Below are positions 9,403-42,109 of a stretch of DNA of 64,000 bases, in pieces. Source of the DNA: Tribonema minus (lineage: Eukaryota; Sar; Xanthophyceae; Tribonematales; Tribonemataceae). The stretch's first letter is position 1, and each line of letters starts with the position of its first letter. The notes beneath the pieces were generated by a model, which was not told where the DNA came from, did no database searches, and saw only the letters and a program-made list of their open reading frames with translations. The stretch spans positions 248,001 to 312,000 of the forward strand of contig JAFCMP010000052.1 of NCBI GenBank assembly GCA_017506865.1. Reading direction: 5' to 3'. A program made the translations under genes and the position numbers.

Positions 9403-12400
9403 ATGCCGGTGCGGGAGTCGCCGCCGGAGTGGGTGCTGCTGCAGCTGGAAGCAGGCTGGAATCACCGCTTTGGGCTGCCATCTGATTCGCTGCTGGCAGC
9501 AGACATCGGTGGCAGCGGTGCTGCTGGGAAAGCTGATGCCAGTCCGGAAGCAGGCCCGTTGGCGAGGCCGCAACGAAAGAGGGTGAGCACGACATCACTG
9601 CTGCCAAAAAGTACTATGAATCATGATGACACGGGTGCCAGCAACTTCTGCTATGCTCGACGTGTCGGTGGTGCTCTCATTATCGTGAGCGTTGTTCATC
9701 GTGAGTCCAGCCCAGCACTTATTTGTTCGGTTATGATGTCGACAGAGAGATCCAGGCACAATGTAATGGTCTCCATGCGATGGATTGCCGTTGCTGCTGT
9801 TGTGTGCAGCCGCGCCCAAGACGGAAGTCCCACCAAGAGGACATTGATGCAGCGCCGCAGCATGAACATCCACAGCCGCCAGAGGTGAGTGGTGGGACAC
9901 TTGGTGCGCTGCAGCTTTCCGCCTGTGCGGGGCCCACATCACGGATTTATCAACCGCATTGCTTGCAAGGTACTGCACATTTGACTCACACACAGGCAGC
10001 ACGCGTGCTACTCGCCTAACAGCTGGCAGCACCCAGCTGCATAGAGTCACGCTGACAGGTACACATACTTCCATGTCGCATCACACGCGCCTTGCATTGC
10101 GCAGCAGGGAGGTGATGTGAGCGCCGCAGGCCTGGCGGCACTGGTGACTGCTGGCCTGCACAAGGAGGCGATGCGAGCCTGCCTGTACAGGGAGAAGCTG
10201 CTGCGGCAAGTGGAGGCGGCAGTGGCGGACTGGCCGGAAGAGGACAATCGCGTGCTGGCACATGCGGCCAGGTATGTACCAACAATCAGAGCACAGCGCT
10301 TGCATGCCGCGCATGGTGCTGCATGTCGCCGCTGGCATTACCAGTTGCACACTGTCCCACGCTCGATCAGAAACTGTAGAATTTTGCTGGCGTGGAGGTG
10401 TTGTGATCAGCAGAATGCAAAACGTCAGACTAGAAGCCGGCGTGTTTTAGCTGTTCCTGCTTGTGATGCTTTGCATAGCACCAACTGCCACCTGAAGCGT
10501 CGTAGTGTTGGCCTGGCACAGCTCTGGTCACTGATGCCTCCTGCTCTCCGCTAAGAATGCTGCACACGAGTGTCAGCAGGTTTCAGTGCCATTGCCAGCA
10601 AGCATTCATGGAGCCTTGGTGCGTTGACTGCAATCAGGCTGCCCAGTCATTGCGGACCAAATGTGCGGCGCAGCCTTGCATATGACCAGCGTATGCCCAC
10701 TGACCCACATATACACTTGTGTGCTGGCTGGCTGCCATAGGTTTTTGATAAATGTGAGCGTGGAGCTGCGGGAAGCGGGTGTGAGGTGTGTGGAAAAGGT
10801 GGTGGCGTGGGTGCTGGCATCATCCGCACACCAGGGCGCGGGTGCAGCGGCGGAGCCGGCGCCGTTTATGTGGCTGGGACAGGAGTACTTGCTGAAGGTG
10901 AGCGCATTGCACGTTAATGTAGCAGCTCTGGTAATGCTTGTCAGCGACTGGCAAAGCGCAAGCGGATGCACGTTGGGCCTGTGCGTGACAGTGTACGCAG
11001 CAGAGGGTGGTCCTGATGAGTGCATGTTTCCGTGGTGCTTTCTAAAAAGTGTGAGGCACTCGACATCTGACAGCGATGAGGGGCACTGAGCCTTCAGCTC
11101 GTGGGCGCAGAGGTGGGTAAAGCCAGGCTCAGTATCACATCCACAGGGTATTTGAGGCTGTTGGCACAGCATGTGCCACTATGATGGCGTGGCTCAAGCG
11201 TTGAAGACACGGGCGGCTAGTGTGTTGGCATACATTGAAGGGCTGTGAGCAGGTACTTCTTGTCAGTCGGCTTGTCGACGCCAGGTTGACAAACTTCAAC
11301 GTGCTCAATCTGTGCCTGCGGTTACAGCTGCGTAACCGATTTCTGCACTTCTGGAGCCCCCCAGCCCACCAATCACACATCTGCCGGCACCTGGCTTGCT
11401 CCATGCAGATGCACGTGGATCTGGACTTTGTTTTCAAGACCGTGGGCCCCGACGCCAGCCGCCTCGGCAACTTTGGCCTGGGCAACCCCCTCCTGCTCAA
11501 ACGCAAGGAGCTGGAGGGGGTGACCAAGGGCAGCGGCAGCAGGCAGCTGGGCAGGACCGCCGCCGCCGCCTTCGTGCTGGCGGACCTCGTGAAGCGCAGG
11601 CACGCGCACGGCATCGTGCTGCCGGCGGCGGCCGTGGCAGTGCCTCGGCCGGCGTACGTCGCGCCGGTGACGACCGTGGCTGCTGCTCCCAGTCACGGCG
11701 CGTCCGACGCGGCAGCAGCGGGCGGCGGCGGTGGCGCAGGCGCTGCAGCAGCAGCTGGCGGAGCGGCGGCGCGCGCGGCCGCTGCGGCCGGCGGCAGAAG
11801 CGCGGAAGATCGCGGCAGCGCGGGCGCCGCGCTGCCGCAGCGGAAGCGCGCCGCCGCGCACGGCGCCGCGGCAAAAGGCAAGCCTCCGCAGCAGCAGCAG
11901 CAGCCGCCGCAGCCGCAGCAGCAGCAGCGCGGGAGGCCCAAGGATCAGGTGGCGCGCCACACGGGGGCGGCAAAGCTGCCGCAGCAGTCGAGTGCGCAGG
12001 GCGCAAAGGCGGACAGCGATGCCGGCGAGGCTCGTGTCAAGCCCGCAGCTGCAGCGGCGAAGCCGGCGGCGGCGGCGGCGGCGGCGGTGCCGAGGGCTGC
12101 AGTCAAACGCAATAGCGTCGCTGCGCAGCGACCAGCCGACAGGGACAGGGGCGCACCGCCGCCGCCGCCAGCGCAAAAGCCGCAGCGAGAGGAGGCTGGC
12201 GCAGCCGCTGCTGCAGGTGGCAAGGGGGGGGGTGGCAGCGATAGTGGGAGCACTGAGGGGGCGGGGGCGGAGGCGGGGCGCAGGGGTGCGTCGAAGGCTG
12301 TCGCAGCTAAAGCGAAGGGCGCGCAGGACGGAGCTGCGGCCGTGTCGTTTGAGGCGCCGCAGCGCGTGAAAGATGGCAAGGCCACTCTCAGGTGAGCTTG

Positions 12401-15400
12401 CCATGCGCGAGGCATGTTGCATACTCACAGCGGGTCACTTGATTTGACTTGCTGACCGGGTTGCAAGACGTCTGACTTTAAGGAATGCGCAGCTTTATGG
12501 AAGCGTACAGAAATCACGCAGCAACACATCAATACCAGCCATGCGACCGCATGACAGCACCCCCCTGTGTCCCTCCCCAGTCGCTTGGTAATGCGTCATG
12601 CTCTCCTTGTACATACCTACTGTAATGCGCCATTCCCTACGCATGGCACCCTCTGCCACGCAGCCTGATGGCGACGCACGGCTCCGCCGGCGAGGACTAC
12701 GCGGACCTCTCCCTCACGCCCAAACCGGGCAAGACCTCCAAACCCCCGGGCCTCTACTCGCGTGAGACCATTGAGCCCTCCAAAAGCACCATCGGGGCCA
12801 CCTACAAACGCGCCGACAACGGCGCCGGCGCCAAGCCGGTGGTGCCGCCGCTGTCGTCACCCGCGGCCGCTGTGTCTGTGTCGTTCGGGGGCTTGCATCG
12901 GGTGCCAGCGCCGGCGGCAGAGGAGGGGCGATCTGAGGGGGGAGGGGGGGACACTGAGGGGGCGGTGTACTCGGACGAGGAGTTTGAGGATGGTGATGAT
13001 CAGCATGAGGGGGGGGAGGGGGAGGAGCCAGGAGAGGAGGACGTTGATGATGAGCAGGTGAGGGAGCATTTGAGCAGGGGGCTGTTGAAGTATACTCAAA
13101 TTGTACTCAGAGCACAGCATATCAGCGACGGCTCTTATTACATGAGAGGGTGAGCGAGAGCACTGGAGAGGGGTGCTGCTGTGACTCACTGTGTACTCAA
13201 AGTGTACTCAAAGCACAGCACAGCTCAGCAGCGAGAACTGCTTGTACGTGAGAGTAGGTCACGCAGCAGGTGGTGTCGACTTGCAGTTAATTGCACAGGT
13301 ACTTGTTGCACTTTGGCAAGTCCTGGGCACACAGCAGGTATTGCTTGCATACCGGTTTTCTGATGCAATCCAAGCATGTACACTCCATAATGCTGCGTGC
13401 AGCTGTGTGTGCTTGACATGGCGGCATATCTATTTGGTAAGCAAGTAGCATCTTGAACCGCTTTGAGATCTTGACCCAATTTGAGTTGCTCCAAGTACGT
13501 GAGTGCCTCAGCATCACTCTGAAGGGCATCGGATCATTTCGTTTTTGTCGAGGATGAGGGCAATACGTGCGGCGTCAGATGATGGCATGAGTCATATCAC
13601 ACGTATTATCATGATTGACTACAATGAACGGTCTCGCTGACCCTTGCTGGAGGGCGCCAGCCGCAATGAAGAGTGCATACCAGGCTGATGTGTACTGTGT
13701 GTGACGTGCTAAGAATTAGGGTTAGGGTTGGGGTCAGCGTTCAGGGTTAGGATGAGGGTTACGCAAATGGCTATCTGCACACAGCACTGCCATTGTGCGC
13801 AAGTGCATCGTTTCGCCTGTCTGAGTTTAGCACTCTGTGGCGCTAATCATGATGGCAAAGCCTCGAAAGGAAGATCATGTCAACAGTATTTGGGGCGCTC
13901 TACCACAAATCACCATAGGGCACTGCAGACAACGTACTTTTTAGCGGTCTTGGTGTGCAGTAGTTGGATCAGCAGATGCTAAATTATTCATGACTTCGAT
14001 GTGCGACAGTGGTTCAATCTCTAAAACACTTCCTGTATGCTGATGATTTGGTACTGATGACTCTCACAGGGGGGGCTAGATCTGTATGAAGACCTGGAAG
14101 TCATAGGCGAGGGCGCCTACGGCGTTGTGTACTCTGCAACCAGAGCTGCCAGTGGGGATGCCAAAATGCCTGCTGGCACCAAAGTGGCCATCAAGGTGTT
14201 CAAAGGTATGTAAGAGGAATCGTGAAGTGTTGTGGCGCGCTCGTACAACTGCCATATTGAAGACCATACTGGACACCAGCTGGACATACAACGCGAGCAG
14301 GCGCCCGGTCTGATAGCGCAAATGAGCAAAGTCCCCGGAGGTGCTGGTGGCGATAAGCGTGTTTGCAAGGAAGCAGCATCCACCTTTCAATTGATGCACC
14401 GGCTGAGCTGTGAATTGTCACAGCTTCATGGCAAAGCTGCAGCCACCGTGGTCCAGTTCATGTACACTATGCACATCAATCAGCCTGTTGAAGGCATCAC
14501 ACTACGGTACATACCAGACGCCTCAGTCATCTGGGCTCGTCGAAGCTGAGCTGAAGGACTGGGACCGCCATTGATTGTGTAACTGATCATCAGAGGCGTG
14601 CTCACACTGTGCAGCGTGCGCCTTTTCAGTCAGATCTACTGCTTGGGCTTGCCAACCACACGTGACTTTGGGTTGTGAACATGGCCTGCTTATGGGTGCT
14701 TCTCATGCATTGTGCCACATGAGTGCCGCGTGCCTGCACGTGAGCTACATACATGCATGAATGCTTTGATTCACAGCTCCCGTGATCTCTCTCTTGCTGC
14801 TCACTGATGCAGCTGCCACTCCAGAGGACGCCACTGATCCTGAGGCAAGTCAGCAGCTTGGGGTTAAATGAGTGTTTTGCATGTTCACACGTGGTTCGCT
14901 GCACCGGTTACCACATGCCAGTCACATTATTTGTGAGACCGCCCTGTTGGAGCTGTCAATTAGATGACTCAATATGAGTCATTACTTGCGATCGAGATGT
15001 TTCATGAGGGGGCCGCTGTCGCGTGCACGGTAGAGCAAAACCTCAAACAGTGCAGCGCAAGCTGCCTGATGTGCATCGCCACTTGTGGTCAAGCTGCAGC
15101 AGCCTTCGTGAGGTACGGCATCAAACGACGTGCCGCACTCAAGGGTGCACTTGCCATCGTGCGAGCAGATGCGTCATAATGTCATGCTGATGAAATAGCA
15201 CGACAAGACATTCAGCGGCACCTATTGTTATGATTGTCCATGATATCAATAACATGTCTCAACAATGCTCATCAGGCCTGATTGGCAAATTCGTTGGCCG
15301 CGCAATGTCCCTGGAACATCAGCCAGCACGCACTCAAAGTTTTGAAGCCATCATCCAGTGCGTGACAGTTGGCGTGCAAAAAACCTGGTTCATGCTCAGG

Positions 15401-18400
15401 TTGGCGTATCAGGCACCTTACTGTTGCTGTTATGTTGCGCTCACGTAGCGCGCACCCATATTTGAGTTTGAAGGCAGTGCTTCAACATGCTGCAAACTTC
15501 AAAAGCTGCGTCACATCTCATGATGCTTCTTTGTTTGCTCTGGTATCCTGCAGGCGCTGGCCATGCTAGACCGCTGCAGGCGGAGAGAGCTCGACCTGTT
15601 TGCCAGCGGCACTCTGGAGCATGAACACATTGTGCGCTGCCTCGGCACCTTCACAAAGGCAGGGCTGGAGCACCTGGTGATGGAGCGCCTTCCAGGGAAC
15701 GTTCTTGACCAGGTACACTGTAGGGGCGACACACTGCAAGTTACCATCCTGAGCCTGAAACGGCGAGACGGCATGGTCACCTGCACGGATGGCGCATCAA
15801 TACTGACTTAATTGAACTATGTTTCATTAAGAGTCATGTGTTGGAATCCATTCACCTGGAGTTGGGGTGGTGGCTCGCTCCTATGTGATGCGACACGGCC
15901 CTTCTAGCATTTGACGCAACACATTGTTGACAATGCCTCATCAGCACAAAAGCTGTCCTCACAGGCAACGGAGTCGCGCTGCCGTACTCAGTGTGCAACA
16001 CCAATGGTCATATAAAACAACTGCAGTGCCTGGCATCAGGCGCCTGTCTTGTGGCAATATTATTGAGCAACGTACAAATTATTTTCTGTAGGAGACTACA
16101 TGGACACGTGTTCTCAACTCATGTGCTCACTGTGCCTCTAAATATTATGCTACGAAAGACTAGACACGTGTTCGCAGCTCTAGTGCTCACTGCGCCTTTC
16201 AACGTTGTTGTGCTGCAGGTGCTGCAAGTTGCCCCTACGGGTCTGACCAAGGGCGAGGTCATTCCCCTGGTCAAGCAGCTGCTGCTGGCCTTGCAGCATC
16301 TGCACTCGCACTGCGTGGTACACCGGGACGTCAAGGTGATACTGCATACCTGTGCATGCTTGTCTGCAGCTGCAAGGGCGGTGAAATTCAAAGAAAAAGT
16401 GTGTGATGCGCGTGAGTCGCTTGTTGTTCTCATCTGCTCATTATTGCAGGCATGATCTGCAGTGCAAGGGCAGAGATGTTCGTATTTCAAAGAAAAAACG
16501 TGCAACGCGCATGTCTCACATGTTGTTCTCATCCTCTCAGCACGGCAGGCATGGCCTGAGCCAGTTTATGATGACAGCGCAGTGCTGCTAACCAAGTTCA
16601 ACAGGGTACATATGTAGGCATGAGGAATTGCTGCCATATGCTACTTGGCGTGATGGAAATTTTGGCTGTGCACGCTAGCAATGGCAGCAGAAGAGATCGC
16701 CTCACCGTGGATGCCGTGCCGAACGAGAGTGAATGCTACTCTAGAAAATAGAACTGCAACCGTCATATGCTGGACGTAGCTGCCATATAACGCTAGCTTA
16801 TGAAACACGTCTGAAACGTGCTAATAAACTGCTGGGTCTGAACCGCACACCCCAGCTGAAGCAGGAATGACAACAAGCGCTTGGCCATAGGAAGTGCGGT
16901 CCTGGTCTGGCAGATATGGCGGTGCACAAAATCTCAGACCCTATGTACAACATTGAAGGCGCCTGGTGCCTCCCAACTCTGTATTTTTTTGTCTCTGGTA
17001 TTAAAAGGAAAAGTATCCATTGTGACGCATTTCAGACTCTGGAAAGCAAGCTCTAGCGACTCAATGTCAGGCCCCCGCATGCTGACAGATGTTGATGTGC
17101 ATGACCCTCCGCAGCCTGAAAACTTGCTGGTGGACTTGGCACAGTCTCCGCCTCTGCTGAAGCTTTGCGACTTCGGTGCCTCAAAGCCGGTGGACGAAGT
17201 CCAGATTGACGCCACAGCCACAACCGACAGACGCCTGACAATGAGGTGACTGCCTTGTGGTAGCAGCTGCGTCTGGCTTCCTGATCAGTTCTGGGCTTTC
17301 TTACTTGAGTTGCCCTTGTGCTGGCAAGCCAGACGTCAGCATCCTGCACAGCTCTATCCTGCTTTTCGAGATTCAGCGCGTGTGCAAGGATATATTCAGA
17401 CGGTGCTTGCCCTCAAAGACAGGCTTGATTATTTTTCCAGGCATGGCCAATGGTTTGTAAGATTTGAGTGGCGGTGCTCACGGGCAGGGCACATACCATA
17501 TTTGTGCTTGCGCTTGCCATCAATGCCGACGCCTTGCGAGCAGATTGGTGGAAGTTCCAGGTTATAGCGTCCATAGTCGTGCGCAATGTGGCCGACATCT
17601 TTGAACAACACTGCATGCAATCCTCCTCTTCAGCAGGCCGCACAGCTGTGCAGTGAATGATCAGCCTACAGGTGGATGTGTAAGCAATGACCAGGATGTG
17701 TGCCCCCATGCTGGCGGCTGAGGTGATTGTGTACCCGCTGCCAGCAAGACGCGAAGCAACACAGGCCACAAGTGAAGCAACGGCATTTACTGCGCCTGCC
17801 GTGTCCATCGCCAGCATGTGCAGCACCGCACCTTGCGCCACGCACTTGAAAGTACATGGGTGGTGTGCTGGGCACTGTCGTTACGAGGCATTGCACACTG
17901 AGCTTCACCACCTGTGCTGACATGATGTCTTCACCACCTGTGCTGACATGATGGTACTTCCCCCCTTGCTGCACCACCCCCCCCTCCACATTGTTTTCCT
18001 TTGCACCAGGGCGACGGCCCGTGACATGACGCAGTACGTGGGTTCGCGGTGGTACCGTGCCCCTGAGCAGCTGGCCTATGGCCCTCGCTACACGTCCAAG
18101 GTATGTTGCCTTCATTTACTGCTGATGAGGCACGCCTCGTGCGCTCCCCGCATGCTGCACGGTGCTTTCATGGCTCACGCAAACGTGATTGCACTGCAGA
18201 TTGAACATTGCAATGGTTTATGTTGAGAGTGCCTGCTCAAATCAGCACACGCGACGACCCAAGACACCGCAGCTGACGCATCTCAGATTCAACGGGTTCA
18301 TTCAATGCTGCACTACGCTGGTGGTGGTGTGCAGGTGGATATCTGGGCTGCAGCATGCCTCCTCTCCGAACTGGCCACGGGGCAGCCCCTCTTTGACGGC

Positions 18401-21400
18401 GAAGACGAACGTGAAGTTGCAAGGGCGATGGTGACGCGCCTCGGCCCTGCTCCGCACAAGCTCATGGTCACCACCTGGCGCGATCTGCTGGAGCCTACGG
18501 ACGACGACCATGTGAGCACTGCTGCTTGACGTCATACCTAAGCCATTGATGATATCCATGTTGTTGAACTTCATTGGAGAGTCTCAACTGGCTGCAGGCA
18601 TATGCAGCCTCGACATCCAAGGTTGACGTCATCAAGTGGATGCAGTAGCCAGCATGCCAGCCGTGTGCCGGACATGGACTGGACACTATTCATGATGATC
18701 TGTTTCTGTGCCTTCCATGACGTCCTCGGCTGGTTTAGTTGCACTATCAGCAGCTCACAGACCATGCGTGCTGCTCGCGTCTTATGCACAGGTCTTGCCT
18801 GTCCGAGAAGGCCTGCTGCAGCTGGAACCGCTGCTTCATGGCAGAATCGGCAGCTCCGGGGTGGAGCTCATGAAGGGCATGTTGGATTACCGCGTCTTCA
18901 ACCGCTTCACAGCACAGCAGTGCCTCGACCATCCGTTCTTTGATACAACATCCCCCCACGAGCGCAAGAGCTCGGATCAGACAGCCACTGAGGTGAGCCG
19001 TGTAGTTGACAGGCATCACGTCAGGAAAGAAATGCTTAGATTGCCTGCGTCAGGCATCTTTGTTTGAAGAGCAATTTCCAATGATCATTTTTTTTCAATT
19101 GGCCAAGCGCAAACTGCTATTTGTGTCTGCTGAGCATGATGTGCGTGTGGATGTGCAAAAGGTCTACACAGCGCCACATGATATTTTGAAGCCATTTTAA
19201 ACTGAGCAGCAAGCATCCCACATTAAATTTCAGCAAGCACTGCTTGCAGCAAGCAGTGACCTCAGGTACAGCCAGTCATACCCAAGGCCAACAAAAGGCA
19301 TGTGTTCTGGAGTGATTGACTGGGCTGAACAGTATTCTGTTGTACCGTCTACAATCTGCCATTGCGCTGCCAACAGCAGCATACACTATACTCGCTTTGT
19401 GTCTCCTAGTATGAACGCTGCCAACAGCAGCACTTCATTCACAGTGCTTGGTTTGTGTCTCGTAGTGTGAATGCAATAGTGAGACCTCATTGTGTTTACT
19501 TAGAGATTTGAGTGATGAGATGCTAAGCTGTTTTCAACTTCAACCTGACCACGTGCGCAGGAGCCCGCTGCCGATGAACCGTACGACGAAGAGAGCAGCT
19601 TTGAGGAAGAGGAGGAACGGCCGCCATCAGATGCTCAGCAGCAGCGCTCCCCACCACAACCAGCAGCGAATCAGGCTGCAGCACCGGTACTGCCCGCTGC
19701 GGCGTACGAGTCGGCTTGGGAGCAGCTGCCAAGCTGTGCGGCGACCGTAAAAGCCAACATTGCCGCTGCCAGAGAGGGCAGTGCAAAGAGCTGTGGCGCC
19801 GCCCTGGAGGTCATGCTGACGTCCGCCGACATTCAGCAGCACCACTGGGAGGCGTTCGGCCGGCAGCTGTGCGCAGCAGTGCTCGCCGCTGCAGGTATGT
19901 ATACTTCAAGTATTTTTTTCTCTGCAAAGATACATGGTGCATTATATGGAATGCTGAGCAGTGATGGTTGTCCGCGCTGCGCGGCGCTGTGCTGGCTGCT
20001 CCTGGTGGTGTGTATGTGTATATGTACTTGGCTTGCACAACAACAATGCAACACTCTGCTGTTTGTCCCGGATTGCGTCCGCTGCTTAGCGCGCCCCCTT
20101 GCCGGCTTCCGCTGCACCGCCTCCGCAGGCGCCGCCGCCTCCGCCGACCAAGTCGCGCTGCCCCTGCCCCTCACCGCCATCGTCCACCACCTCGATGCGC
20201 AGCTGTCCCCCGCCCTGTCCGCCATCACCAAGTGGGCCTCGGGGGGCACGCGGCGCGGCGTTGACGCGTGCGCCGCCGCCCTCGCGCGCGCGCTGCCGCC
20301 GCCGAGCGCTGCCGCGAAGCGCGCTTTCAACAGCGCCTCAGCAGCGCTCAGGGGATTCCTGAGCGCTGCCACGTGCGTGTTGAGCGCGCCGCGTGGTGCC
20401 GAGCGCGGCAGTAGCGGTAGCGGTGGCAGCACTGCGGCGCGGGGCGCAGGGAGTGTGGGGGTGCGGCGGGCCGTGACTGGTGCGGTGGCGGTGTCGGTGC
20501 TGAATCAGGTGTGTGATGGCGCGCTGAGCTGATGGATTGCATGTGCTGTCAATATGGCTCATTGGTGAACTGACTGACAGGGCAAGATGCTTTCGTCAGG
20601 GTTGCTTATTCTAGTGATGGGGTGCACTGTGGTTGTGGCCTAATCTCCTTCATTACGAGAGCAGGGCTAGTGGCATGATCATCTGGGTCACCATAACTGC
20701 AGGAATCTTGACAGATTGCATTTAACCCATGCACCACGTGCTAAGAGAGTACTATTACTAGTGAAGCAAATGCATCTAGCTCATGTCATCATTCCCTTCC
20801 GTGCCTTGCTAGATGATGGCGGAGCTGGCCCCGCAACTACTTGATGCAGGCAGCAGAGCTGATGAACAGCTTCACCACCTGGAAAGCTTGCTGGTCGCAC
20901 TTGGCCTCGAAGCTGCAGGTGGCAGCGCAGCAAAGGTCAGTGGTCCCACTGCCAACATGCATGTTTTCACATGGACTTGCAAGTGCGCATCCATGAGGGA
21001 GCATCAAACAGAGCAGTGACACAATGCACGCTGTGTTTACGCTGCCCAGTGCGCTCTATGAAAAGCAGTGTTGATGCATGTGTCTGCATACTGATGAGTA
21101 TAGTCAATGCGCTTGGTCTTGCTGCAATGCTGGCGCTACCATGACGACATGCGCTCAAACGCCTGTGATTTAATGTTGCCGAGCAATACTTAGTTGTTTC
21201 GCTAATCACTGACATCAATGCACATTTGCTGATCAGTACAACATACTGCTGGTGCACTCCCACTCAACTGAAATTTGGCAATACCAACATGCTTTTTGTC
21301 TGACACGTCCACTGCCGCAGGCCGCCTACCCTGTGCTGTCCGTACACGGCCACCTCTTCACGCCCGCCAGCAAGGCCTGCATTCTCTACCCCATACTGAC

Positions 21401-24400
21401 GGCTGCGGGGGTGCAACGGCTGAGCGTTGTAGTGGAGCGCCAAGACGCGCTGGCGTGTACGCTGCGCGCCATGAAGGCGGCAGGGCACCTGGGCGGGCCT
21501 CATGACACGCACGGTACGTACCGCTTGTTCTGCATTCAAATGATCTTCAACATGCAAGAAGAGGGAAATATGCTCATCGACCTTTTTTTTTACAGGGCTG
21601 TTGCAAGTAAATGAATTTCAGTTCTATGGAATTCATCAATGAACTATTTCAGTTGTTCAATTTCATTAGAATTTCAAAATTTTTATCTTTTGAGACGTGA
21701 CATATGTCATTTTCTTAATTTGATTTTTGGTTCATGTACTCGGGAGCAAGTGCAGCAGGGGAGTGGTAGACTACCCGTGATTGTTTTGTGGCAAGAGGTG
21801 ATGCGCTACTCTAGCGCATTGGTGAGCATGTCTCGCGCCAGCGTGGCAGCATATTTGATTACTGCAGGTGGTTAGGCTCCTTGTGCCGGTAAGACAAAAT
21901 GGCATGCGCGACCACATGAAGTAGCGCGCATGATGCTATGCTGCGCGATGCCCCGCGACCTGTCAGCGTCTGTGATGGCGTGTTGAACTGCGGCCATACG
22001 GTGTGTGTGTGTGTCTGTATACCCTCCCAAACCTCATTTTTACCTATGTCACAAACATTGCAGGACCCAAGGCAACCTACGTCATGATGTTTGTCCATGC
22101 TCTGCGTTTCTGACACTCTTCTTCCTGCGTTCTGCCCATCTTCCGCAGGCAACAACGGCGCCGCAGTCCTCCTTTGCCCGTACTTTGCGAGTAGCTATGG
22201 CAGCAAGCGCGTGCAGGGGGTTACCGTTGAGGAGGGGGAGGGGCTAGGCCCCAGAAAAGAGCTCTTTGCTCTGCTGGCGGAGCAGATGGCCTCCAAGTGG
22301 CGGCCTGTCACACTTGATCCTCCAGGTGGGCGGTGGTTCAGTCAGCAGAGAATTGTCCTTCACGTATTGCAGAGTTATGCACATCATACTTGATGGGATG
22401 TATTGCCATTCAGTCACCCCGTGATTGTTGCTGGCTTTTCTGGGTCACGATGCATGCTTTTTCCTGCAGACTGCTTGTAGGCATGCAGCGGTACTGTAAG
22501 CATGACGTCAGACGGCCATCGCCTGACACGAGGCTGACATCAGTGCTTTGACATCAATGTCACACTGTCACAGGGTGATCGTGTGTGTCAAAATACCTCT
22601 GCATGTCCAGTGATGTCATCATTGTGCAAATGTCATGACCTGAGCTGACCCCCAAAAACTAAATTATGGCGCCTGGGGTGGCACGTGCACTGTTATTGTG
22701 ATGCAGGAGACTCTGTGGTTGCAACAGCCAAGCAGGGAACTGCTGAGGTGGAGCTACAGCTGCACAACACCTCCGCCAACGCAGCGGTGCAAGTGCAGGA
22801 GGGCTGGCGCCTTCGCACCAGCTCGCAAGACTTTGTCATTACCATGGTACGTCAGCGACCGATACGGCACTAGGATGTCATGCAGCACACGCTTCTTCAC
22901 ATTCCATGTGTTACTCTCGTTGCACCGCGCTGCAATTGTCTGCACTATCAAAATCGAGCAATGATGAATGTATCTTGCACGCCAGTTTGCCAAGCCCCCC
23001 AAAACGTTTTTCATTTGCCAGTGCGTAAAAGAAAACAACAGTGAAATACGACCAGCGCAGCTGCTGTTGGCTGCGGTGTGCCTATCTGCCTTCTGTACAC
23101 CACTTTGTGTGAAACTTTCCAGTGCAGGCATTGGTCATCAATCGCTCATGGTGTACCCACTGCCTACCAATAACTTCGCCCTCATATACAGCAAACTAAC
23201 CTCCAGCACCATTTGTTCACGCTGACCCGCATGACCTCTTCTCACCATGCACTGCCTCACTCCCCGCCGCTCCACCCCCACCAGGTTCTGCAAGACAAGC
23301 GCGCATCATCATCACCAACGCCGCGCGCCACCCCCCCCCCCAGCGGCCACCCCCTCGGCACCCTGAGAGTGCGCGTGGACGCCCTCTGCCGCGCCGCCCT
23401 CGCGCGCGAGCCCTGCACGCTCATGCGCCCCAGCGACTGCGCGCTGCTGCAACGCCCCAACGCCGCGGCGCTGTGGCTCAATGGCGGCCTCGACCGGGAA
23501 GACGCGGACCAGTTGCGGTTACTGGGGGCCCTCATGGCGCTGGCGCCGCACAACCAGTGCGCGCTGCGGCACGAGGGGCCGCCGCTCGCGCCGCTGCTGT
23601 TCCGGCTCGTCATGGCGCGGGAGGGGGAGGGGGGGGGGGCAGTGCCCCCCGGCGGGCTGCAGTTGAGCGACCTGGAGCAGGTCGATGCGGATCTGGCATT
23701 GGCTATGAGGTGAGCTGGTGATGTCTGGTTACACCACAATCAGACGTGTAACCTCCTTTGCCTTGAAAAGGCCGGCTGGTTTCGATACACTGAGCATGGA
23801 AGGGTCAATTCGGCGAGGATGGGCTGTTGCTGGGCAGGTACGCGCTGGCGACGGTGTTGTGATGCCTCACTGCACATATTGCTCGACTGCGATGCAATAG
23901 GCCTACGATGCCACTCACCCGCATTTTCCAATGCTGCATATGATGCAGGCGCGTGGCAAGCATGGACGCCAAAGCCTTCCAGGCACTGCTCAACGCCGAC
24001 GGAGAGTCACCCACCACCTCCAAGGGCAAGTACATGGCAACAGCTGTCAGGGAGGCCCTAGGACTGCGCCTACAGCTGGCCACTGGTGATGCTGCCAATG
24101 CGCCTACTGCCAAAGAGCAGGCTCAGCTCGACAGCGCCGAGTACTGGTCGGACTGGCAGCTGCGCGCGATACGGGAGGGGTTCTACAGGCACATGCCGGC
24201 GTCTGCCTTGACCTGTGAGTGCTGGTGGTGCAATGTGACGTATTTTATGCCTGCGCCGGTTTTGCAATGATAGCCGTGCTAGGAAAATGGCCAATCACCA
24301 AAGCTATTGAGTATATCAATGGGCACGGACCGCGCTTTGACGCACAAGAGATCGTATACCAGCATCAGTTTTTTGCAAGCAAATGGCAACTAATCACACA

Positions 24401-27400
24401 AAGATGCAATAATGTCACAGGGTCATTGCTTGGTTGTAGCTTTGCTTGGCATCAACCGCATAATTTTAATGACGAGACTTGATCAAATGTGCTGTATGCG
24501 TGTGATGCAAAATGCTATGCTGCACTTCTGACACGCACTGCACTTTTGAGTGAATTTCATGAATCATGGCAATACCTGCAAATGACCAATGCACTGCGCT
24601 TTGCGCTCTGACAGTGATGTGTATGACGCTAATAGTCCGGTGTACCTTTTGATCTGGCCCCTTTGTCATCCTGTGACGGCAGCGCCCATGGTACTACAGC
24701 CTGTGGAGCTTGCCGACATGGTGTGCGGGCCCCCTGGGGATGGCTCCGCCTCGGACTTCAACTTCAGAGAGACCTTCCACATCACAGAAGACTCCGACTT
24801 TCAGGATGTGCACGAGCTGCGCGATGCCTTCTGGGAGGTGGTGGACACAATGATGGTGCAGGTGGGCCATCATTCATTGCGTGCACTGTAGTTGCTTGTG
24901 CAGTAGAAGTGAAAAATTGCTACTGCGAGACAGCGACAGCGACAGCTTTGGGCACTGGCATGTCCAGTGCAGGTCGGCGAAGTGGCGCATGCTCCACTGT
25001 GCGTCATGCAGTGATGGTGACACATACACATGGGATGAGATGTATGGTGTTGCAGAAATGTTTTGTTCCCGCAACTCACGTTGACACTGTATCAGTCGGC
25101 CAAGGCAGGGCATGCACGTAGCGGCATGACACCTTGGCAATGCAAGGCCGATGTGCGCTGGTGTCAGGCATTGTGGGCCTTTACTGCAACAAATCGTACA
25201 CACTGGTTACTTATTTGAAACCAACCGTCAAAGCGGAGTTACCTGACACTTCAACCTTTGCTGCGCGCAGGAGAAATGGGGTCTGCTGCTCTTCATCACC
25301 GGCGTGCGCCGCCTCCCCCCTCCCAAGACGGAGCTCATGGCCATAGAGCTGCAGTACATGCCGCCAGAGGCACGCGCGGGCTCCAACCGCAGCGCAAGCG
25401 CCAGCGACGCTGCCCAAAGCCTTCTGGGCAGGGTGCCATGCGCGCACACGTGTGACAACGTGCTTGAAGTTCCTGATTACTGGACGGCCTTGGTGACTGA
25501 GGCCGGCTTTGACCCCAAGCGGGGGCTGCCGGCGTCGGCCAAGCTCATGGGAGACCTGAGGCAAAAGGTGCGCGTGGTTGTAGTATGTGTATTGGGTATG
25601 GGCTTGAGCGGCATGCATCCTGTTTGTGTGCAGGCGTGTATCAGCGCTTGGACATATGCATTAGCGCATGAGATGCGGGCTACTAGCCCAGTAGCCAGCA
25701 CTAGCCCAGTCAGCTCATTGCTTTATGACGGAGCTGTAGTATACGTTGCTGCACGTGGAGCAACTAGGTGATATTGCTGTCATATTGCCATGTCTCCACG
25801 GTGCCAGCTTTTGCCGTGTCTCCATGGTGCAGCTGTTGCATGCTACTGCAGCACTGGTGCATGGACATCTCAGGTGGGTTTACAAATCTGCTGTGACTCA
25901 AAGGTGCTGTTTGTATCATGGGCTCATGTAAGCGCACTATTGCACACCCCATCAATGTGGCTGCACATGCATCTAAGAGCCTGCGAGTTGCCTGTTGGGA
26001 GATCAGCGGTTAGGTCTTGAGTGCCACCCATGAGCCATGAAATGTGCCCCCCCTCTTCATATCCGCTGCAATTTGCAGGTCCAGATCTCAGCATGCAAGC
26101 ACAACTCACACTATACAAGGACAACAAAAAATTAGATGCATCCGCCTTCAATAAAACATGAGCGTGCCATTGCATCAGCCACTGCTACACACCATGTGTC
26201 AGCGCTAACTGCACTCACGCTTGTGTGCATGTTGCTCTACGCTACGTCTTGCAGCTGCGCAAGCATTTGCGAGACAAGCTGCTGCTGGCGATCGCCAACG
26301 CTCAAGGATACGGTCTAGATGGCATTTCCTCATCAATGGGCGATGACAATTCTACATCTGCTGTTCATGAAGGCAAGTCCAAGATGACTTGCCCACACAT
26401 GTGCCGTCTACTGAGATCCTTTGTCAAGATTGTGCAGCATGCGCACATGAATCAATTCCCCCCCTTTTTCTTCACACACAAACTCAAGGAGTCGTGTTGA
26501 ACAACAGTGTACATGCTTAAGTGTTGGAACCATGCTCTTATCCATGCCATCGGAGATCCGATTCAATGATACTTGGCATGCCAGACCTGTGACCCCAATT
26601 TTATGCAGATGTTTGCCGGATCCCTTTATCATGAAGTATGCATTAAGAAAAGGCAATCCGCTACCCAACCCTTAGCACGGGCAATGATGGCACTTACGGG
26701 CTTTGCCTCATCCGCACCATCTTGTAATACTGTGCTTGCGTGTGCTGGCAGGTCTTCGGTTGTATGACTCCGCCAGCTTGTCGGATGGCCTGTCAATACC
26801 GGACCTTGGCGATCGCGACCAGTATGTGCAATCGCCTCTCAGGTAACTAATGATTCCCGGCGCTGTTGTCATGGCACCTGGTGCTAGGCTCACTGCGCAG
26901 TGCCTGGTGAAACACTTCAAGAAGTGCATGTGGTCAACTGTGAGGCAGAACACTTTGAGACTTTGACATGGAGTGCAACTTATGCCATTGATGCGTACTT
27001 CTGCGCACGCGACGCTCACTCAGCCTGAAGGGCACCTGAGCACCTCGCGCTTCTTGGCTCGAGGCAGACTGAGTAAGCTGAGTGTTGCGTCAATCCCCAT
27101 CTCACAGTGCAAATGTCGCACATATTTTTAATCTACCACATCTGTATGACCTCAATGAGGTTGGCTTGGCTCCTCAGGCACCAGGCACTGTGCCGAGCGT
27201 CAAATCATCTTGAGCTCAGTCGGTGTATCCTCCTTTTGTAGAAGTGGTAGTGTGGGTTTGCAGGTACGAAGTAGGGCTGCTACCTGCTGCATTGAAGTAT
27301 CATGATTCGTCAACACAAGCCAGATGAGACTGCTGCATAAATTCACGCGTCCGCGGTCAGGTACGTGGTAGCACACAGCTTGTTGGAAAGCCATGCTGCA

Positions 27401-29830
27401 ATGTGTTGCCTTAGCCACGCTGCTGCCATACAAACAGCGTTTTGAAGCTTGTGAACTCACATGACGGTGACCATCAAGGAGTTCTGTCACCAAATACCAG
27501 TAAAGCTGGTACTAAAAAGCTGTGCATGGGTGAGGTCGTTGCACAACAACCCGGGATAACCAGCAGCGTGCGGATGCACCTTTGCATAGTCTCACCACGT
27601 TCTGCCAACATTTGAGGCGAAATGGCTATTAGTCTCAACGATCATTATGCCATGCTAAGACTGATGCTAATGGAAAACAAAACGGTTCCTTCATCTCGTC
27701 GGAGCACTACTCATCAATAAACTTACAATGTAGTGCTCATGGCGATGTTTTTGATTTGTCCCTTGCAAGTGGCACTGACTGTTGTCCATGTGTGTTGTGC
27801 TTCTGTTTTGTGGTTCAGTGCTGGAGCTACCACGCACACACCGTCTTCATCGGGCAAGGTGAGCGAGCTGGAACATGACAAGTTCAACGGTCAGACGTTC
27901 AAGCCAGTCAAGCAAGTTCCCACTGATAGGGAGGCATAAATCATGTGCTAAAGTGCCCAATGCCACCCTCCAATTATTATCGACGTCTTCTAAAATTGTG
28001 CGCAGCGGCATGCATCTTCAGGATGCAATAAGATGACAGCTCACTCACACATGCAGTTCGTCACATGTCCCCAGCCTGCTGAGAGCATGCGATGACATGC
28101 TGAAAAAATATGCCCCTCACATTGAGCAGCTGATGCGTCGCAGTGATGGCACCTTGTAGTGAAGCACAACCAATGACACTGGTGCTCTGACTGATGCTGC
28201 TGCCTTCCCAAACAGACATCCCCAGTGCCTACGCCACGTGCCTCTGGAAGCCAGCAGCCGCTGGGGTCTGCTGACAAGTTGAGGCAGGCAGCTGAGGCAG
28301 CAGCGCAGCAGACAAGTGGGCCGCAAGTCACTCAACGCTCAAGTGTGGGCTCCAAGGATGTTGGCCCAGAAGAGGCGCCGGCAAAACGGACCAGCAAAGG
28401 CAAGCCTTCGATTCAAGTCAATTCAATCTAAACACTTGATGACAGCATTTATACAACTACATTACACGAAGCATATTGTCGTATGTATTGCTGCACACCG
28501 TCTTGGGTGCGCCCTCTTCACTTGTCATTACATGCTTCAATCTGGGTAGGTAGCATCGGCCGAAGTTGGGGACGACAGGAAGCGAGTCGCGCTTTGAAAG
28601 TTTGGTGGTACAGTCCATCGCAAAATCTTTGTTATTGATGTTGCGTCTGCAAAAGCATTAGGAGACGTGCCTCTAGCTATGTTTACGATATCCTCATGAC
28701 CCATGTCAACCATGCCTCGCACACAGCTCTCAATCGGAGTTAGACCAAGAGCCTCGGGAAAGCAAGCATTGCATTGCATGCCAGCATTGCCTGACTGGCA
28801 TCAGGGGCACCATGGCACACTGCCCCCAACACCTCCTTGTTGACTTAACACAATCCTCTTGATCCGTGTGGCCTGAGAAAGTGGCGCACTGTCCCTCACC
28901 ATCAAGTTTATGCGTTTGCCCATTGCAGGCCCGCAGAAGCGACAGAGCACACAGTTCGCCGATCGCACGCAAGTGAGCCAGCATGAGCAGGAGGAGGCTG
29001 TGGAAACCCTGAGCTGTCAGTTTGAGAGCGACTCAGATGATCTGGACGCCTTCTTTGGCCTTGGCTCAGGTGAGCTCAGAAAAAAAAGGCTTGATTGCTG
29101 TGCGTGCTGAGTGTGATATATATATAGCTGCGCGTGCCAAGCACATCCATCGTTCAGTAATGATGGTCGGAAGCGAGGAGTCAAGTGGCAGCATGAAGCG
29201 TGAGAGTATGTACTTCAAGTATGAAGCGTGAGAGTATGTACTGTAGATGTAGTATGAAGCGTGATAGTGTATAGTGCAATACTCACACACACGCTAGGCC
29301 AGCGTTCTTTTGCCAATAGAGACATACTTTGGCAGTAGGTACTTTGAAGTATTGGCGATGAAGGTGTGCTGAGTCTCGAACATGACACCACGTTTCTGCG
29401 AGTATGCCTGCACTGGCAATCATGGAGATGTGACAGTGACAGCATAGTCGGTGGCGCATTGCAATACATTCAACTTCACACGAACCGCGTCATGAGCGCC
29501 CACAAAAGCAATCATGGCAGCCTCCACATTGCGAAACGAATGAAATGACATATGTCAATGACTGCTCTGTTGCGCATGCCATCATATGCAGGCGCACCAG
29601 ACGCGTTCGCTGATGATGACAATGAGGCACAAGAAGCGGGCCACGAAGAGCAGGCGCAGGATGCACACGTGTATGCAACCCTGGATGACGAAGAACCCGA
29701 CACCTCTGACAGAGAGGATGGGGACTTGTTCGCTGAGAATCCGGCGCACGGGCAGCATGCCGATGGGCAGACAGACGATGATGGGTACGGTTTGAGCGAC
29801 GACTTTGAGACAGACGAGCTGGAGAGTTGA
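9403..29830 (+). CDS. Giant protein kinase-HECT ubiquitin ligase fusion
   Basis: Thirty exons join in frame to 2,108 residues: 9403..9582, 9810..9884, 10105..10271, 10741..10897, 11409..12391, 12664..13057, 14070..14205, 14813..14844, 15554..15712, 16219..16335, 17115..17245, 18010..18100, 18335..18511, 18792..18992, 19561..19894, 20129..20508, 20813..20935, 21321..21513, 22149..22325, 22707..22846, 23285..23709, 23949..24214, 24683..24861, 25271..25567, 26255..26372, 26752..26842, 27819..27858, 28216..28399, 28929..29069, 29592..29830. Residues 1-652 are unrecognised: helical early part, a long Ala/Gln/Pro/Gly-rich linker in exon 5, and an acidic end. A CMGC kinase occupies 653-about 985, an acidic linker and helical region run to about 1340, HECT is at about 1340-1862, and an acidic Ser/Gln-rich tail follows. 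The kinase and first HECT-side exons have in-frame stops just upstream and no own ATG, and junction phases match, which favours one gene. Two or three separate genes remain possible. It presumably phosphorylates and ubiquitylates targets; substrates are unknown. Confidence 0.7.
13713..13760 (+). repeat. Degenerate telomere-like tract in an intron
   Basis: ATTAGGGTTAGGGTTGGGG is followed by degenerate pieces (TTCAGGGTTAGGATGAGGGTT). The tract lies in the 1-kb intron between the acidic linker exon and the first kinase exon of the large gene. TTAGGG is the telomere repeat of stramenopiles and many other eukaryotes. Interstitial tracts like this can mark old break repair or fusion. Confidence 0.75.
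16101..16565 (+). repeat. Imperfect tandem duplications within kinase introns
   Basis: GACACGTGTTCTCAACTC begins at 16103 and recurs as a variant at 16163 (60-bp period) just before the exon at 16219. In the next intron a segment of about 98 bp starting TTCAAAGAAAAA at 16387 is repeated from about 16485, each copy containing TTGTTGTTCTCATC and a GGCAGGCATG-like end. These are local duplications with no coding role visible. Confidence 0.6.
17903..17955 (+). repeat. 26-bp tandem duplication
   Basis: CTTCACCACCTGTGCTGACA followed by TGATGT occurs twice head to tail in the kinase intron before the exon at 18010. The two copies are essentially identical, so the duplication is recent. Confidence 0.8.
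21321..26372 (+). other. HECT ubiquitin-ligase domain
   Basis: Eight exons of the large gene show the HECT order. VEEGEGLGPRKELFALL is at about 1371-1386. The N-lobe follows, with LWLNGG, LGALMALA and LQLSDLEQVD. AIREGFYRHMP comes next, then the E2-binding and hinge part with VLQPVELADMVCG and FWEVVDTM. LLLFITGVRRLPPPK leads to the catalytic HTC motif, and KLLLAIANAQGYGLD closes the C-lobe. The active cysteine is C1800, codon 25451-25453, in VPCAHTCDNVLEVPDY. The residue after it is Asp where most HECTs have Phe. A Gly/Ser-rich insert of about 20 residues precedes the active site. HECT enzymes take ubiquitin from an E2 onto this cysteine before passing it to substrate. Confidence 0.88.
29190..29275 (+). 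repeat. Short tandem repeat in last intron
   Basis: ATGAAGCGTGAGAGTATGTA and close variants occur three times in a row in the last intron of the kinase-HECT gene. A minisatellite-like slippage product is the simplest reading. Confidence 0.75.
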
Positions 29831-31369: not shown

Positions 31370-33590
31370 GATGTGCACCGGAGGAAGGGGGCTGGTGGAT
31401 GCTGATCGAATCGCCAATGGCCATCGCGGGCGCATGGGGGGAAGGGGGGGGCAGTAAGAGCCCAACGTATGCCTCATTCCAGTGCAGGTCGCCAGTGCGA
31501 ACGTGCAAGAGCCCTGCCATTACAAACGGCGCACAGCCAGATTAGTGAGACAATGTTGTCAAGATGCGTGGCAGGTTCGTGGAACTCTGTCTCTGGGTAC
31601 TACTTTTGTCACACATTGCTGAGCGATATCAGCCTTGTGGCCTTTCTAGGCATGCCACTGGCCTCCAAATTGACGTCTTCGCTATTGACCTGGCATCATC
31701 TTCTGGCTCTACATGTACGAATGTGTGGGTCGTTGTGTAGCGGAATGTGCCCGCTTTGTACCAGGCTGTAAAGCCTGCATGCGAGCTTACCTGCAAGCTC
31801 CATTCTCCTGCTGCCATACTGCACCGCTCTATATCTTCCATGGGCATTGGCATTGCCATGCTTGCACCTTCAGGTAGCGTGCAGTACATCACTGAACGCG
31901 CATGCTACAAGTGCCTCCAACTTGCTACTGAATGACGATACACCCCTGCACAGTTCACCTGCAGGACACCATGACAGCGAGCACTTTTGCCTCTCGGCAA
32001 GCAGTGCGCGCACTTGTGTGTGGTGTACACTAAGCCTACTGTTGCACACCACACACAAGCACACACGGACAGCCGAGCAGTAGAGCACAGTAAACACCAA
32101 GACGAGCAACCGGCATACCCAGCCAGGTAGTGGGAAGCAACGCGAGACCGCTGCGGCGGCACACTCGGACCGACGAAACTGACCAGTTTAAGGCCTGCTC
32201 TGGTGTGGCCAGAGCTGTTGCGAACACCGCCATCAGTGCCAGTCAAAGCTTCGCGTTGCACGTGTTTAGCCCATCCTGACCGGTAACAGCCGCAACACGA
32301 CGTTGCCCTCCTATCTGTGACACTATCCTCTACCGCTGCAACTGCCCATGTGTCATCATGGGTACGTATAGGCAGAGCCTGTGCAGGCTATACGGCCAGA
32401 CAGCAACAATACGCTAGACGACGCCCTTCTCTCTCACACAGTAGCACCATATCGCCATGGCAGCAAAATTCTGCCTCAGTGCTCAACCACTCCCTCTCTG
32501 TGTCATCGCATGTACATACATACTGTTACAGCATGCGCGGTCAGCAGCACAGTCAGACAGCACTGTCCACCTCTGACTTACCTCATGCAGCAACTTCGCG
32601 CCAGTCGTTGAGGGATCGTCCATCACTTACCTCATGTAGCAGCCCTTCAGGAATTTGTGCATCGGTCACTGATCACTCACCTGTTCTGTGTCGCCTGCAC
32701 TGCAGCTGATGCTTTCACGAGCCGCTTGGAAACTCGTGTGAAAGGCAAACCATCATCATCGTATACTCTGAACAGCCCTCTTCCGAACTGCGCCGCCATC
32801 TGAAGCTTCTACAAAAGCGTTCACCTACTCTAAAATTGTACAAGTACATAGGACACTTATCTGGTAGTCGCCAGCCGCGTGCGTCCAAAGCAGATGACAG
32901 GGTCGATCCGAGGGCAGGTGTATGCCACTGGGGTCACCCTGGTGGAGGTGCTTGCCATTCTGGAGCTGGCTTAATGATGGCCCGTGTGGTCTGGGCCGTC
33001 AGTAATCTGTACAGACACCAAAGTGGGCAGAATTTCTGTCACAGATCAGGAACAAAAACGATGTAAATCCATGGCAGAGAGCTGCAATCAATGGTGACAT
33101 GCACCCTGTCGACCGAAAATGGTGACATGTCTCCGACTACAATCGATTGATGGCACTGTAGACTGGGCACACACACAGGGCACAGCACAGAATTGTGAGA
33201 TGACACTGCAGACGTCACCAACAGTTGCAGCAGTATGATGGTATGGACAGTGCTGGTGATTTGCCACCCATTATGCAGTCCCTTCCGTTTGCAATACGCC
33301 CTGATGCGTCGCCATCACTTACTCAGATTCTTGAATGCAGCAACTTTGTATGCGTGTCAGTGGAATACCACTAAGCTAAGCATTGAGCGATTGCTGCACT
33401 GATGTACAGGGCTTGCGGTGTAAACACAGCAAACTCTCAGAATTCGTTGTCCTGCATATGATCCACCCTGACAAGCACTGCATTGACATAGCGTGCGATA
33501 ACTTGAGGTACAGAACGCAGACGTGGGCTCATGTCACGAGTGTCTTGTTCGATGCCAATGACAGCAGCACAAGCACAGTGCACTAATGGA
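31370..33590 (+). repeat. Tandem unit A
   Basis: First copy of the 2.1-kb unit. Shared landmarks are CACCCCTGCACAG followed by GGACACCATGACAGCG (here near 31943), the CATCATGGGTACGTA block near 32355, and GGGTCACCCTGGTGGAGG near 32933. The block around 32150-32250 is nearly identical in units A-D. Confidence 0.75.
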
Positions 33591-35700
33591 TTAGGTAAGC
33601 GGACCAACCTTTGTTCGACCGTGACGGTCTGGCTGAGCGCTGATGCCATGTACTTCTGTCTTGTGGTGCGCTGTCCTCTGTAGGCACGTCACTGCTGAAC
33701 TGGTAGTTGCACCCTGTGCCACGCACAAACAGCAGAAAGAGGGAGCGACAATGAGTCAGTATGTGAAAATTCAACAATGAATACAATGCGGCATACTGGC
33801 CATTGAAGTTTGCGGGCGCCTGACAAGCCAACTGTAAGTGGGGTCACATAACACCGCACAACTCGTGCAAATTGCAAGTACCATGGCTGAATTGCTGTTG
33901 TGCTGCAAATGGTTAACGCTCGCATGCCATCGTACCTGCAAGCTCCATTCTCCTGCTGCCATGCTGCACAGCTTCAGATCTTCCATGCGCATTGACAATG
34001 CCATGCTTGCACCCTCAGGTACAGTAGCGTGCAGTACATCACTGAACACGCGTGCTTTAATACCCTAAAGAGGCCACTGAATGACAGTACACCCCTGCAC
34101 AGTTCACCTGCAGGACACCATGACAGCGCGCACTGTTGCCTCTCGGCAAGCAGTGCACACACTTGCATGTGGTGTACACTAAGCCTACTGTTGCACGCCA
34201 CACACAAGCACAAATTGACAGCTGAGCACTAGAGCACAGTAAACACCAAGCCGAGCAACCGGCATATCCAGCCAGGTAGTGGGGAGCAACGCGATACCAC
34301 TGCAGCGGTACACTCGGACCGACGAAACTGACCAGTTTAAAGCCTGCTCTGGTGTGGCCAGAGCTGTTGCGAACACCGCCATCAGTGCCAGTCAAAGCTT
34401 CGCGTTGCACATGTTTAGCCCATCCTGACCGGTAACAGCCGCAACACGACGTTGCCCTCCTATCTGTGACACTATCCTCTACAGCTGCAACTGCCCATGT
34501 GTCATCATGGGTACGTACAGGTATAGGCTGTGCAAGCCATACGGCCAGACAGCAACAATATGCTAGACGTCCTTCTCTCTCACACAGTAGCGCACGTCGA
34601 CAGCAAACTTCTGCCTCAGTGCTCCACCACTTCCTCCCTATGTATCACAATATAGCACCCCCGGTCAGCACAGTCAGTCAGCAGCGCGCACGTTTAGACT
34701 TACATCATGCAGCAATACTGCGCCAGTCGTGGAAGGATCGTCCATCACTTACCTCATGTAGCAGCCCTTCAGGTATTTGTGCATCGGTCACTGATCACTC
34801 ACCTGTTTTGTGTCGCCTGCACTCCAGCGGACGCTTGCACGAAGCGCTTGGAAAAGTGCAAACACGAACCCATCATCATCACATACCCTGTACAGCCCTC
34901 TTCCGAACTGCGCTGCCATTTGAAGTTTCTAAAAAGGGTTCGCCTACTGTAGAATTGTACAAGTACATGGGACACTTATCTGGTTGTCGCTGGCAGCTTG
35001 CGTCCAAAGCAGGTGACAGGGTCGATCCGAGGGCAGGTGTATGCCACTGGGGTCACCCTGGTGAAGATTGTTGCCACTCTGGTGCTGGCTTGATGATGGC
35101 ACTTGTGGTCTGGGCTGTCTGCCATCTGTACCGACACCAAAGCGGGCAGAGTAACGGTCATAGATCAGGAACAAAGACGGGCGGCAACAATAGCAGAGAG
35201 CTACAATTGATGGTGTCAGGCGCAATATCGACCGAATATGGTGACATGTCTCAGCCTACATTCTATTGATGGCACTGCCAGTGACCATGCACAGAGCACT
35301 GCGTAGAAATCTGTGGTCAAACTGCAGACCCGTGACGGACAGTGGCAGCAGCTTGTGCAATGCAGTGGTACGACATGTGCAGGCAACATGCGTCCCATCT
35401 TGCATTGTATTGCCATCACTGGAACGCAACTAATATGCATGTCAGTGGAATGCCAAATGGCAGCCAGGACATGATGCACTGACGTAGCACGCTTGGGAGG
35501 GAATACAGCAAACTCTCAGAAGGCATTGAATACTGGCTCCTGCAAATAATGGATCCTAAAGAGCACACTGTAAACATGCACACGAAAGACACAAATCTGA
35601 GGTCTTATGTCATCAACGACTCCTCCATCACCAATGTCAGTAGCAGAATAGCAGAACACAAATGTGAGGTAAGCGGACCAACCTGTGCGCACCATGAGAG
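33590..35700 (+). repeat. Tandem unit B
   Basis: Second copy, offset by roughly 2.1 kb from unit A at every landmark (near 34089 and 35052). On the minus strand a short segment around 34821-34917 is open as MAAQFGRGLYRVCDDDG in this copy and in unit C, followed by a GTGAGTG donor-like site. This is the best hint of former coding content. Confidence 0.75.
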
Positions 35701-40959: not shown

Positions 40960-42109
40960 TTGAGAGCAAGCACTCAACGACCATCCTGTCCAAATATTGT
41001 GTTAGCTCCATTCTGTCTGCTCTGCGACTCGATTGCCATGTTACACAGACTGCTGCTGTATTTCACAAACCGCCATGTGGAGCAACAGGGGCATGGCACG
41101 AAGCAAGAGCTGGATGGACGCATTGAATTCATGAACAGAGCAACAGCAATCGAGCTCAGCAGATCGCGTGATGTGGTGACAAAATGTCTGTCGGCCAATG
41201 CCATGACTTGCAACGCCAGAACATGCTTCCAAGAAGGGCGATGCTTGATGGGGCAAACAACAGACAATGACACACCAAGGAGCAGAAGCACACCTCGCCT
41301 AGCCATCAAAAACTGTATCAGCAGTCATGTCATTTAAGGCGGCGCGGTGCTTGCGATGACTTTCGTCCATCGTTTCACGCGTCGGTTACAGCACGCGTTT
41401 CGTTGCACCAGCTCCTGCCCCAGTGACAGGAGCTATCAGCATGTGCCAGGCACCCAGTTTCACGATATGGTCCCTGCTAGGATGCCCAAGTCGTGCAGCA
41501 ATGAACCCGGTCCCGACCAGCGCAGGAATGATGCTTGTACACCAGTGCTCCACATTGGCGCGAGTCTTCTGGCAGCCTGTGACACACAACCAAAGAGCAA
41601 GCAGCCATTAGCATCGGCCCTGCTTGAGCATCAACCAAGGCATATGTAAGTGACCGTTGAATGACGCCCTTACCATGTGAATGTGAGGCCTGTGAGCCAG
41701 CTTGTACACCTGCACGTACGATGGGTACTTGTGTTGAAGGCACCTGAGCAGGGCGTCGCTGCGCGCTGTGCCGTGTTGAAAGAAATGTGCACACGTTGGC
41801 GGCATGCGCAGCGCTCAGCTGTGGCAAACTGACAGGCTAACCAAGCAAGCTGCCTCACTACTTGAGCTGCCTGGCTGTACAAGATTATGCATAGACCAAC
41901 ACGTGCACTCTTCAAATAGCAGATGGCACAATGCTTGTCTGTACGTCAAAGTTCCAAACTTCAATTTCCCATCCGCCATGCACAGGACAGCGTGACAGAA
42001 TGGTGCTTTGTTCGCACACAGGATATGAAGGCGTGTCGGCATGGCAACAGCATACACTGCCTGTTTACGAATGTGTCTGAAGTAGAGCTGATCAAGAAGA
42101 AAGTAGACT

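Follow-up and report, generated by a model that had tools for sequence, protein, structure and literature searches.

Positions 9403-29830 of the plus strand hold a predicted gene of 30 spliced exons in the window, the stretch of 64,000 nucleotides of Tribonema minus DNA that was analysed. With each exon end located individually within the part read, 9001-31500, the exons join in phase at all 29 introns and run through 6327 nt to a single stop, encoding 2108 residues. An earlier examination of the bare letters (hereafter the sequence-only reading) had likewise described thirty exons in phase up to one stop. Because the analyst picked the splice sites, agreement in phase carries little weight when taken alone. 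Acceptors are AG at 29 of 29 introns, donors are GT at 26 of 29 and GC at 3 of 29, and intron lengths range from 220 to 1012 nt. This spliceosomal gene structure marks the source as a eukaryote. An extra in-frame ATG lies at 9301, upstream of the model start at 9403.

Coding status was assessed with a leave-one-out codon score, in which each exon is scored after training on the other exons versus introns, with all 29 introns, intron 14 included, as background. In each of the 30 exons the model frame outscores the other two, and the score is above zero in all except exon 25 (-0.06). Domain matches, splice-site scores and the codon score together outweigh the phase agreement, and the domains are the strongest evidence. 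The features of the gene are collected in Table 1.

Table 1. Features of the predicted kinase-HECT gene, numbered from the first letter of the window.
Feature	Positions	Strand	Basis or remark
Exons 1-4, N-terminal region, residues 1 to ~193	9403-9582, 9810-9884, 10105-10271, 10741-10897	+	Without recognised domain
Exons 5-6, low-complexity Ala/Gln/Gly-rich, then acidic, up to the kinase	11409-12391, 12664-13057	+	Translation
CMGC-type protein kinase domain, exons 7-14, residues 658-983	14070-18992	+	PF00069, CDKL5 match
Intron 14, kinase-HECT junction, 568 nt	18993-19560	+	Phase 0 both sides
Exons 15-17, linker, residues 1001-1279, acidic then Ala-rich	19561-19894, 20129-20508, 20813-20935	+	Translation
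HECT domain, exons 18-25, residues ~1280-1861	21321-26372	+	PF00632, NEDD4 alignment
C-terminal tail, residues 1862-2108, end of exon 25 and exons 26-30	26324-29830	+	Stop at 29828-29830
GC donors of introns 8, 25 and 28	14845, 26373, 28400	+	GCAAGT, GCAAGT, GCAAGC

The regions that flank and separate the two enzymatic domains resemble little in the collections searched. A Pfam search up to E 10 returns zero matches for residues 1-263 and zero for the linker, and comparison with solved structures in the PDB yields a single chance-level match for the N-terminal region (E 4.3) and another for the linker (E 0.95). The low-complexity exons 5 and 6 have codon scores of 0.48 and 0.51 nats per codon. 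Intron 15, within the linker (19895-20128, 234 nt), is open in frame; if it were retained, the linker would gain 78 residues.

The kinase domain is full-length, matching PF00069 in Pfam at E 1.2e-50 over profile positions 1-263 of 263, and the claim of a complete CMGC kinase is borne out. CDKL5 is its top PDB match among the best 60 of 2407 (E 1.1e-36, 129.8 bits, with FUS3 at 113.0 bits), a tentative likeness to CDKL over MAPK, CDK or GSK3, drawn from match scores among PDB sequences. An NCBIfam search returned 13 families, every one below cut-off. Alignment to CDKL5 shows that the catalytic residues are kept, namely Lys694, Glu720, Asp798 of the HRD motif and Asp819 of the DFG motif, and these are shared with CDKL5 and the CDKL/CMGC kinases along with the Gly loop GEGAYGVV. 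The activation loop carries a TQY motif at 851, followed by WYRAPE, whereas the crystallised CDKL5 chain has DEE there and the native CDKL5 motif is TEY. Fusion to a HECT domain further separates the Tribonema minus protein from these kinases. On these residues and motifs, the kinase is very probably active.

The HECT domain is less uniform. Its C-terminal half matches PF00632 at E 1.1e-18 over profile positions 158-285 of 306, from exons 22-24 (9.1e-20 in a separate Pfam run), and contains the catalytic cysteine, Cys1800, encoded at 25451-25453 in an AHTCDN motif that aligns with the AHTC site of NEDD4. The E2-binding N-lobe matches the same profile over positions 19-101 at an E of only 0.14, and the first HECT segment, exons 18-20, gives no HECT match in a Pfam search; GVTVEEGEGLGPRKELFALL in these exons, recognised by eye, is presumably the N-lobe signature. 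The complete HECT domain claimed by the sequence-only reading therefore holds in part: the C-terminal half with its catalytic Cys is secure as a sequence assignment, while the domain as a whole is a probable assignment and is divergent. The C-lobe and its catalytic Cys are in common with NEDD4/E6AP-type ligases, but these are distant relatives (top E 5.2e-05, E6AP) and set apart by the weak N-lobe of the Tribonema minus domain, by an insertion past the Cys, seen by eye, and by the tail that follows.

That tail leaves the HECT domain internal rather than at the C-terminus of the model. A C-terminal place is the usual one for a HECT domain, though it does not enter into how the domain is defined by sequence. 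Its 247 residues are acidic (21% Asp+Glu), and the frame codon scores of exons 26-30 are 0.10, 0.08, 0.17, 0.25 and 0.37. If intron 25 were retained, ~58 residues would still lie beyond the HECT domain (16 exon 25 codons and 42 of read-through). A tail in this position is unusual, because HECTs are said to require a C-terminal catalytic site and C-terminal shuffling is described as absent, in the available portion of PMC4327156. The catalytic C-terminal carboxyl may, however, be supplied by an acidic side chain, according to an excerpt of a 2026 review (PMC13196369).

The join between the two halves of the gene, 18992 to 19561, looks like an ordinary intron. Exon 14 ends in phase 0 (GAG/GTGAGC) and exon 15 starts in phase 0. 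Scored with a matrix built from the other 28 introns, the intron 14 donor, GAGGTGAGC, ranks 6 of 29 at 10.8 bits; among the 1181 GT sites that the gene leaves unused, 1 does as well. The acceptor is ordinary, ranking 17 of 29 at 6.1 bits, and has 66 equals among 1260 unused AG sites. Coding signal ends at 18992 and resumes in frame at 19561, and within the intron 23 of 24 window-frame codon scores fall below zero, the remaining one being 0.00, a result that is slightly circular since the background includes intron 14. The intron ranks 21 of 29 in length, counted from the shortest. Its GC content of 0.456 is the lowest of the 29, beside 0.457 and 0.460 for introns 22 and 18 and 0.453 for the 3' flank. 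A bacterial promoter and terminator scan of the junction is uninformative for a eukaryote. Translation continued beyond exon 14 meets a TGA at 19065-19067 after 24 codons, and exon 15 has its first in-frame ATG at 19813 (codon 85). The sequence-only reading had described both phases, a TGA near 19067 and the lack of an ATG near the start of exon 15, all of which agree with these positions. The in-frame TGA that it placed 18-16 bases upstream of exon 15 is likewise present, but at 19546-19548, 15-13 bases before 19561.

Alternatively, this 568-nt gap might separate two adjacent same-strand genes that were misjoined, one for a CDKL-like kinase and the other for a HECT ligase. The gene model was built from sequence only. 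None of the other 28 introns is as AT-rich as the gap, which resembles the 3' flank in GC content and contains one ATTAAA. Terminal kinase exons could also begin, for example, at acceptors at 19054, 19210 and 19272 (scores 5.5-5.9). Such an arrangement has to contend with the strong donor immediately past the last kinase codon and must fit the HECT promoter, 5' UTR, ATG exon and donor into 568 nt, while a start inside exon 15 would lose 84 codons that score as coding. The separate starts scored were those with a single coding leader exon, an intron of at least ~60 nt and a donor that is either GT, whatever its score, or GC scoring over 2 bits. The best of them, 19081-19140, has a donor of 5.9 bits and non-coding composition, and falls 21.0 bits behind joining. 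This split-vs-join score, which is uncalibrated on true gene gaps, places intron 14 at rank 6 of 29 introns and takes the wrong sign at two of them: intron 15 (-33.5 bits), with its 234 nt open in frame, and intron 11 (-1.1 bits). The odds for all readings given here are rough, and on them misjoined genes are very unlikely. One gene encoding a single kinase-HECT protein is highly probable from the predicted structure, and the earlier claim of one polypeptide survives as the most probable reading of that predicted structure.

Proteins that join a kinase to a ubiquitin ligase have precedents. KEG has a RING plus a kinase in one chain. Kinase domains also occur among Medicago U-box proteins, as described in the accessible part of PMC5542650. 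These plant U-box/kinase proteins and KEG resemble the Tribonema minus model in carrying ligase and kinase in one chain, but the U-box or RING has a ligase chemistry unrelated to that of HECT.

The closer likeness is to Leishmania. LmjF35.4000 of Leishmania major is a predicted protein that combines a HECT domain with three TPR motifs and an ePK domain of unique type, and is described, in the excerpt available of PMC1266030 (2005), as Leishmania-specific, with HECT absent from the kinases of the other genomes sampled there. The HECT ligase TKUL of Leishmania mexicana is described as having a regulatory kinase domain built in (PMC13196369, available in part), and we infer that TKUL and LmjF35.4000 belong to the same family. 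TKUL resembles the predicted Tribonema minus gene model in having kinase and HECT in one polypeptide, but the Tribonema minus kinase is CMGC/CDKL-like, and the likeness drawn here is one of domain content. LmjF35.4000 likewise has an ePK and a HECT in one predicted protein, but differs in a kinase that is classed as 'unique' and in three TPR motifs that have no detected counterpart in the Tribonema minus protein. Pfam finds no TPR repeats up to E 1 in the two halves of the protein or up to E 10 in the N-terminal region and linker, in a search where HMMER filters may drop weak repeats. The pairing of kinase and HECT is thus already known from Leishmania, as far as the excerpts of these sources go; the CMGC kinase, the undetected TPRs and the internal HECT differ here.

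To the sequence-only reading, HECT ligases with a built-in kinase domain were unknown from plants and animals. Nothing in the literature consulted contradicts that statement, and Marin's survey of plant HECTs nowhere uses the word 'kinase' in its main text, but the Leishmania proteins, in the excerpts cited above, show that the kind is known elsewhere. 'HECT' is absent from the consulted portion of a Phytophthora kinome paper, and among the matches listed in the literature searched, much of it available as excerpts, no CMGC kinase-HECT protein is named. Searches for relatives gave no confirmed relative of the HECT part in viral and prokaryote contigs and none of the N-terminal region or the first HECT segment in viral contigs. 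The kinase matches 5 loci in viral contigs at 25-26% identity, which are taken as generic kinases. Since the searches covered viral and prokaryotic collections, the lack of relatives with the same domain order says little.

The function of the paired domains admits several readings. The sequence-only reading proposed that the kinase phosphorylates outside substrates, creating degrons that are read and ubiquitylated by the attached HECT. Both enzyme domains do lie in one chain, and the catalytic residues of the kinase are intact. This coupling has no direct support, however: Pfam shows zero phosphopeptide-binding domains in the protein, and TKUL, the only kinase-HECT protein with a described mechanism that was found, is kinase-regulated in the part of the review available (PMC13196369), a precedent that favours a kinase acting on the ligase to which it is fused. 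Phosphodegron writing is therefore rather unlikely. Less likely again is a protein that is mainly a kinase, with a catalytically weak or dead HECT serving as a degenerate ubiquitin-binding module. The weak N-lobe match and the 247 residues beyond the domain are in keeping with such a loss, given the C-terminal catalytic site required in the excerpt of PMC4327156, but the catalytic Cys and AHTC motif are preserved and an acidic side chain can stand in for the catalytic carboxyl (PMC13196369, in part). The HECT ligase is probably active.

The best explanation as a whole is a single kinase-HECT protein whose kinase controls its own ligase, a proposal with about even chances of being right. By analogy with the integrated kinase of Leishmania TKUL, as described in the available excerpt, it is an even call that the kinase acts mainly as a regulator of its own HECT. 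The kinase would switch the ligase on or off within the same molecule, through direct contact or autophosphorylation, and an E2 would hand ubiquitin to Cys1800, from where it would reach substrates selected by the N-terminal, linker or tail regions. Evidence against this explanation comes from the HECT domain not being C-terminal, a position said to be needed for activity in the portion of PMC4327156 consulted.

An enrichment of CMGC sites in the linker or tail, which would support phosphorylation in cis, was looked for and not found. S/T-P sites are not enriched in either region, with 2 seen against 2.27 expected in the linker and 4 seen against 2.72 expected in the tail. The CDKL5 site pattern, RPx[S/T][AGP], has zero matches in the same scan. 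With S/T-P sites not enriched, the kinase may exert its control allosterically instead of through autophosphorylation at many sites.

There is perhaps an even chance that this CMGC kinase-HECT protein with an internal HECT has an origin independent of TKUL, that two lineages separately built kinase-switched HECT ligases, and that HECT domains break the rule of lying at the end of their proteins. If so, a second, differently built kinase-HECT ligase would stand alongside the one from Leishmania, suggesting that equipping a HECT ligase with its own kinase is a solution that recurs, and offering a natural test of the control of a kinase domain over HECT catalysis. The tail past the HECT would test the stated rule of C-terminal HECT catalytic sites.

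Other features surround the gene in the window. Exon pieces on the minus strand at ~9126-6820 have GTGAG donors similar to those of the kinase-HECT gene, and were recognised by eye as what we take to be a prefoldin-subunit-6-like protein. Its putative start lies ~277 nt from the kinase-HECT ATG at 9403, a spacing that, if correct, fits a divergent promoter. Farther along the minus strand, a 299-codon open stretch (4287-5183) matches ankyrin repeats just below cut-off (PF13637, E 1.3e-4). Ubiquitin matches occur at 1534-1728 and 2673-2903, also on the minus strand (PF00240, E 3.8e-18 and 0.025, the latter below cut-off), and their sequence suggests head-to-tail ubiquitin-like units. Downstream of the gene, 31924-43847 contains two repeat families with four copies each of 300-nt reference units. 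The copies are spaced at ~2.1 kb, apart from a later one that lies 6.5 kb farther along, and have 61-92% identity to the reference. The segments at 38178-39072 and 47080-47977 are duplicated ~8.9 kb apart, at 98% and 95% identity over 300-nt units, and are perhaps a recent mobile-element or segmental copy.
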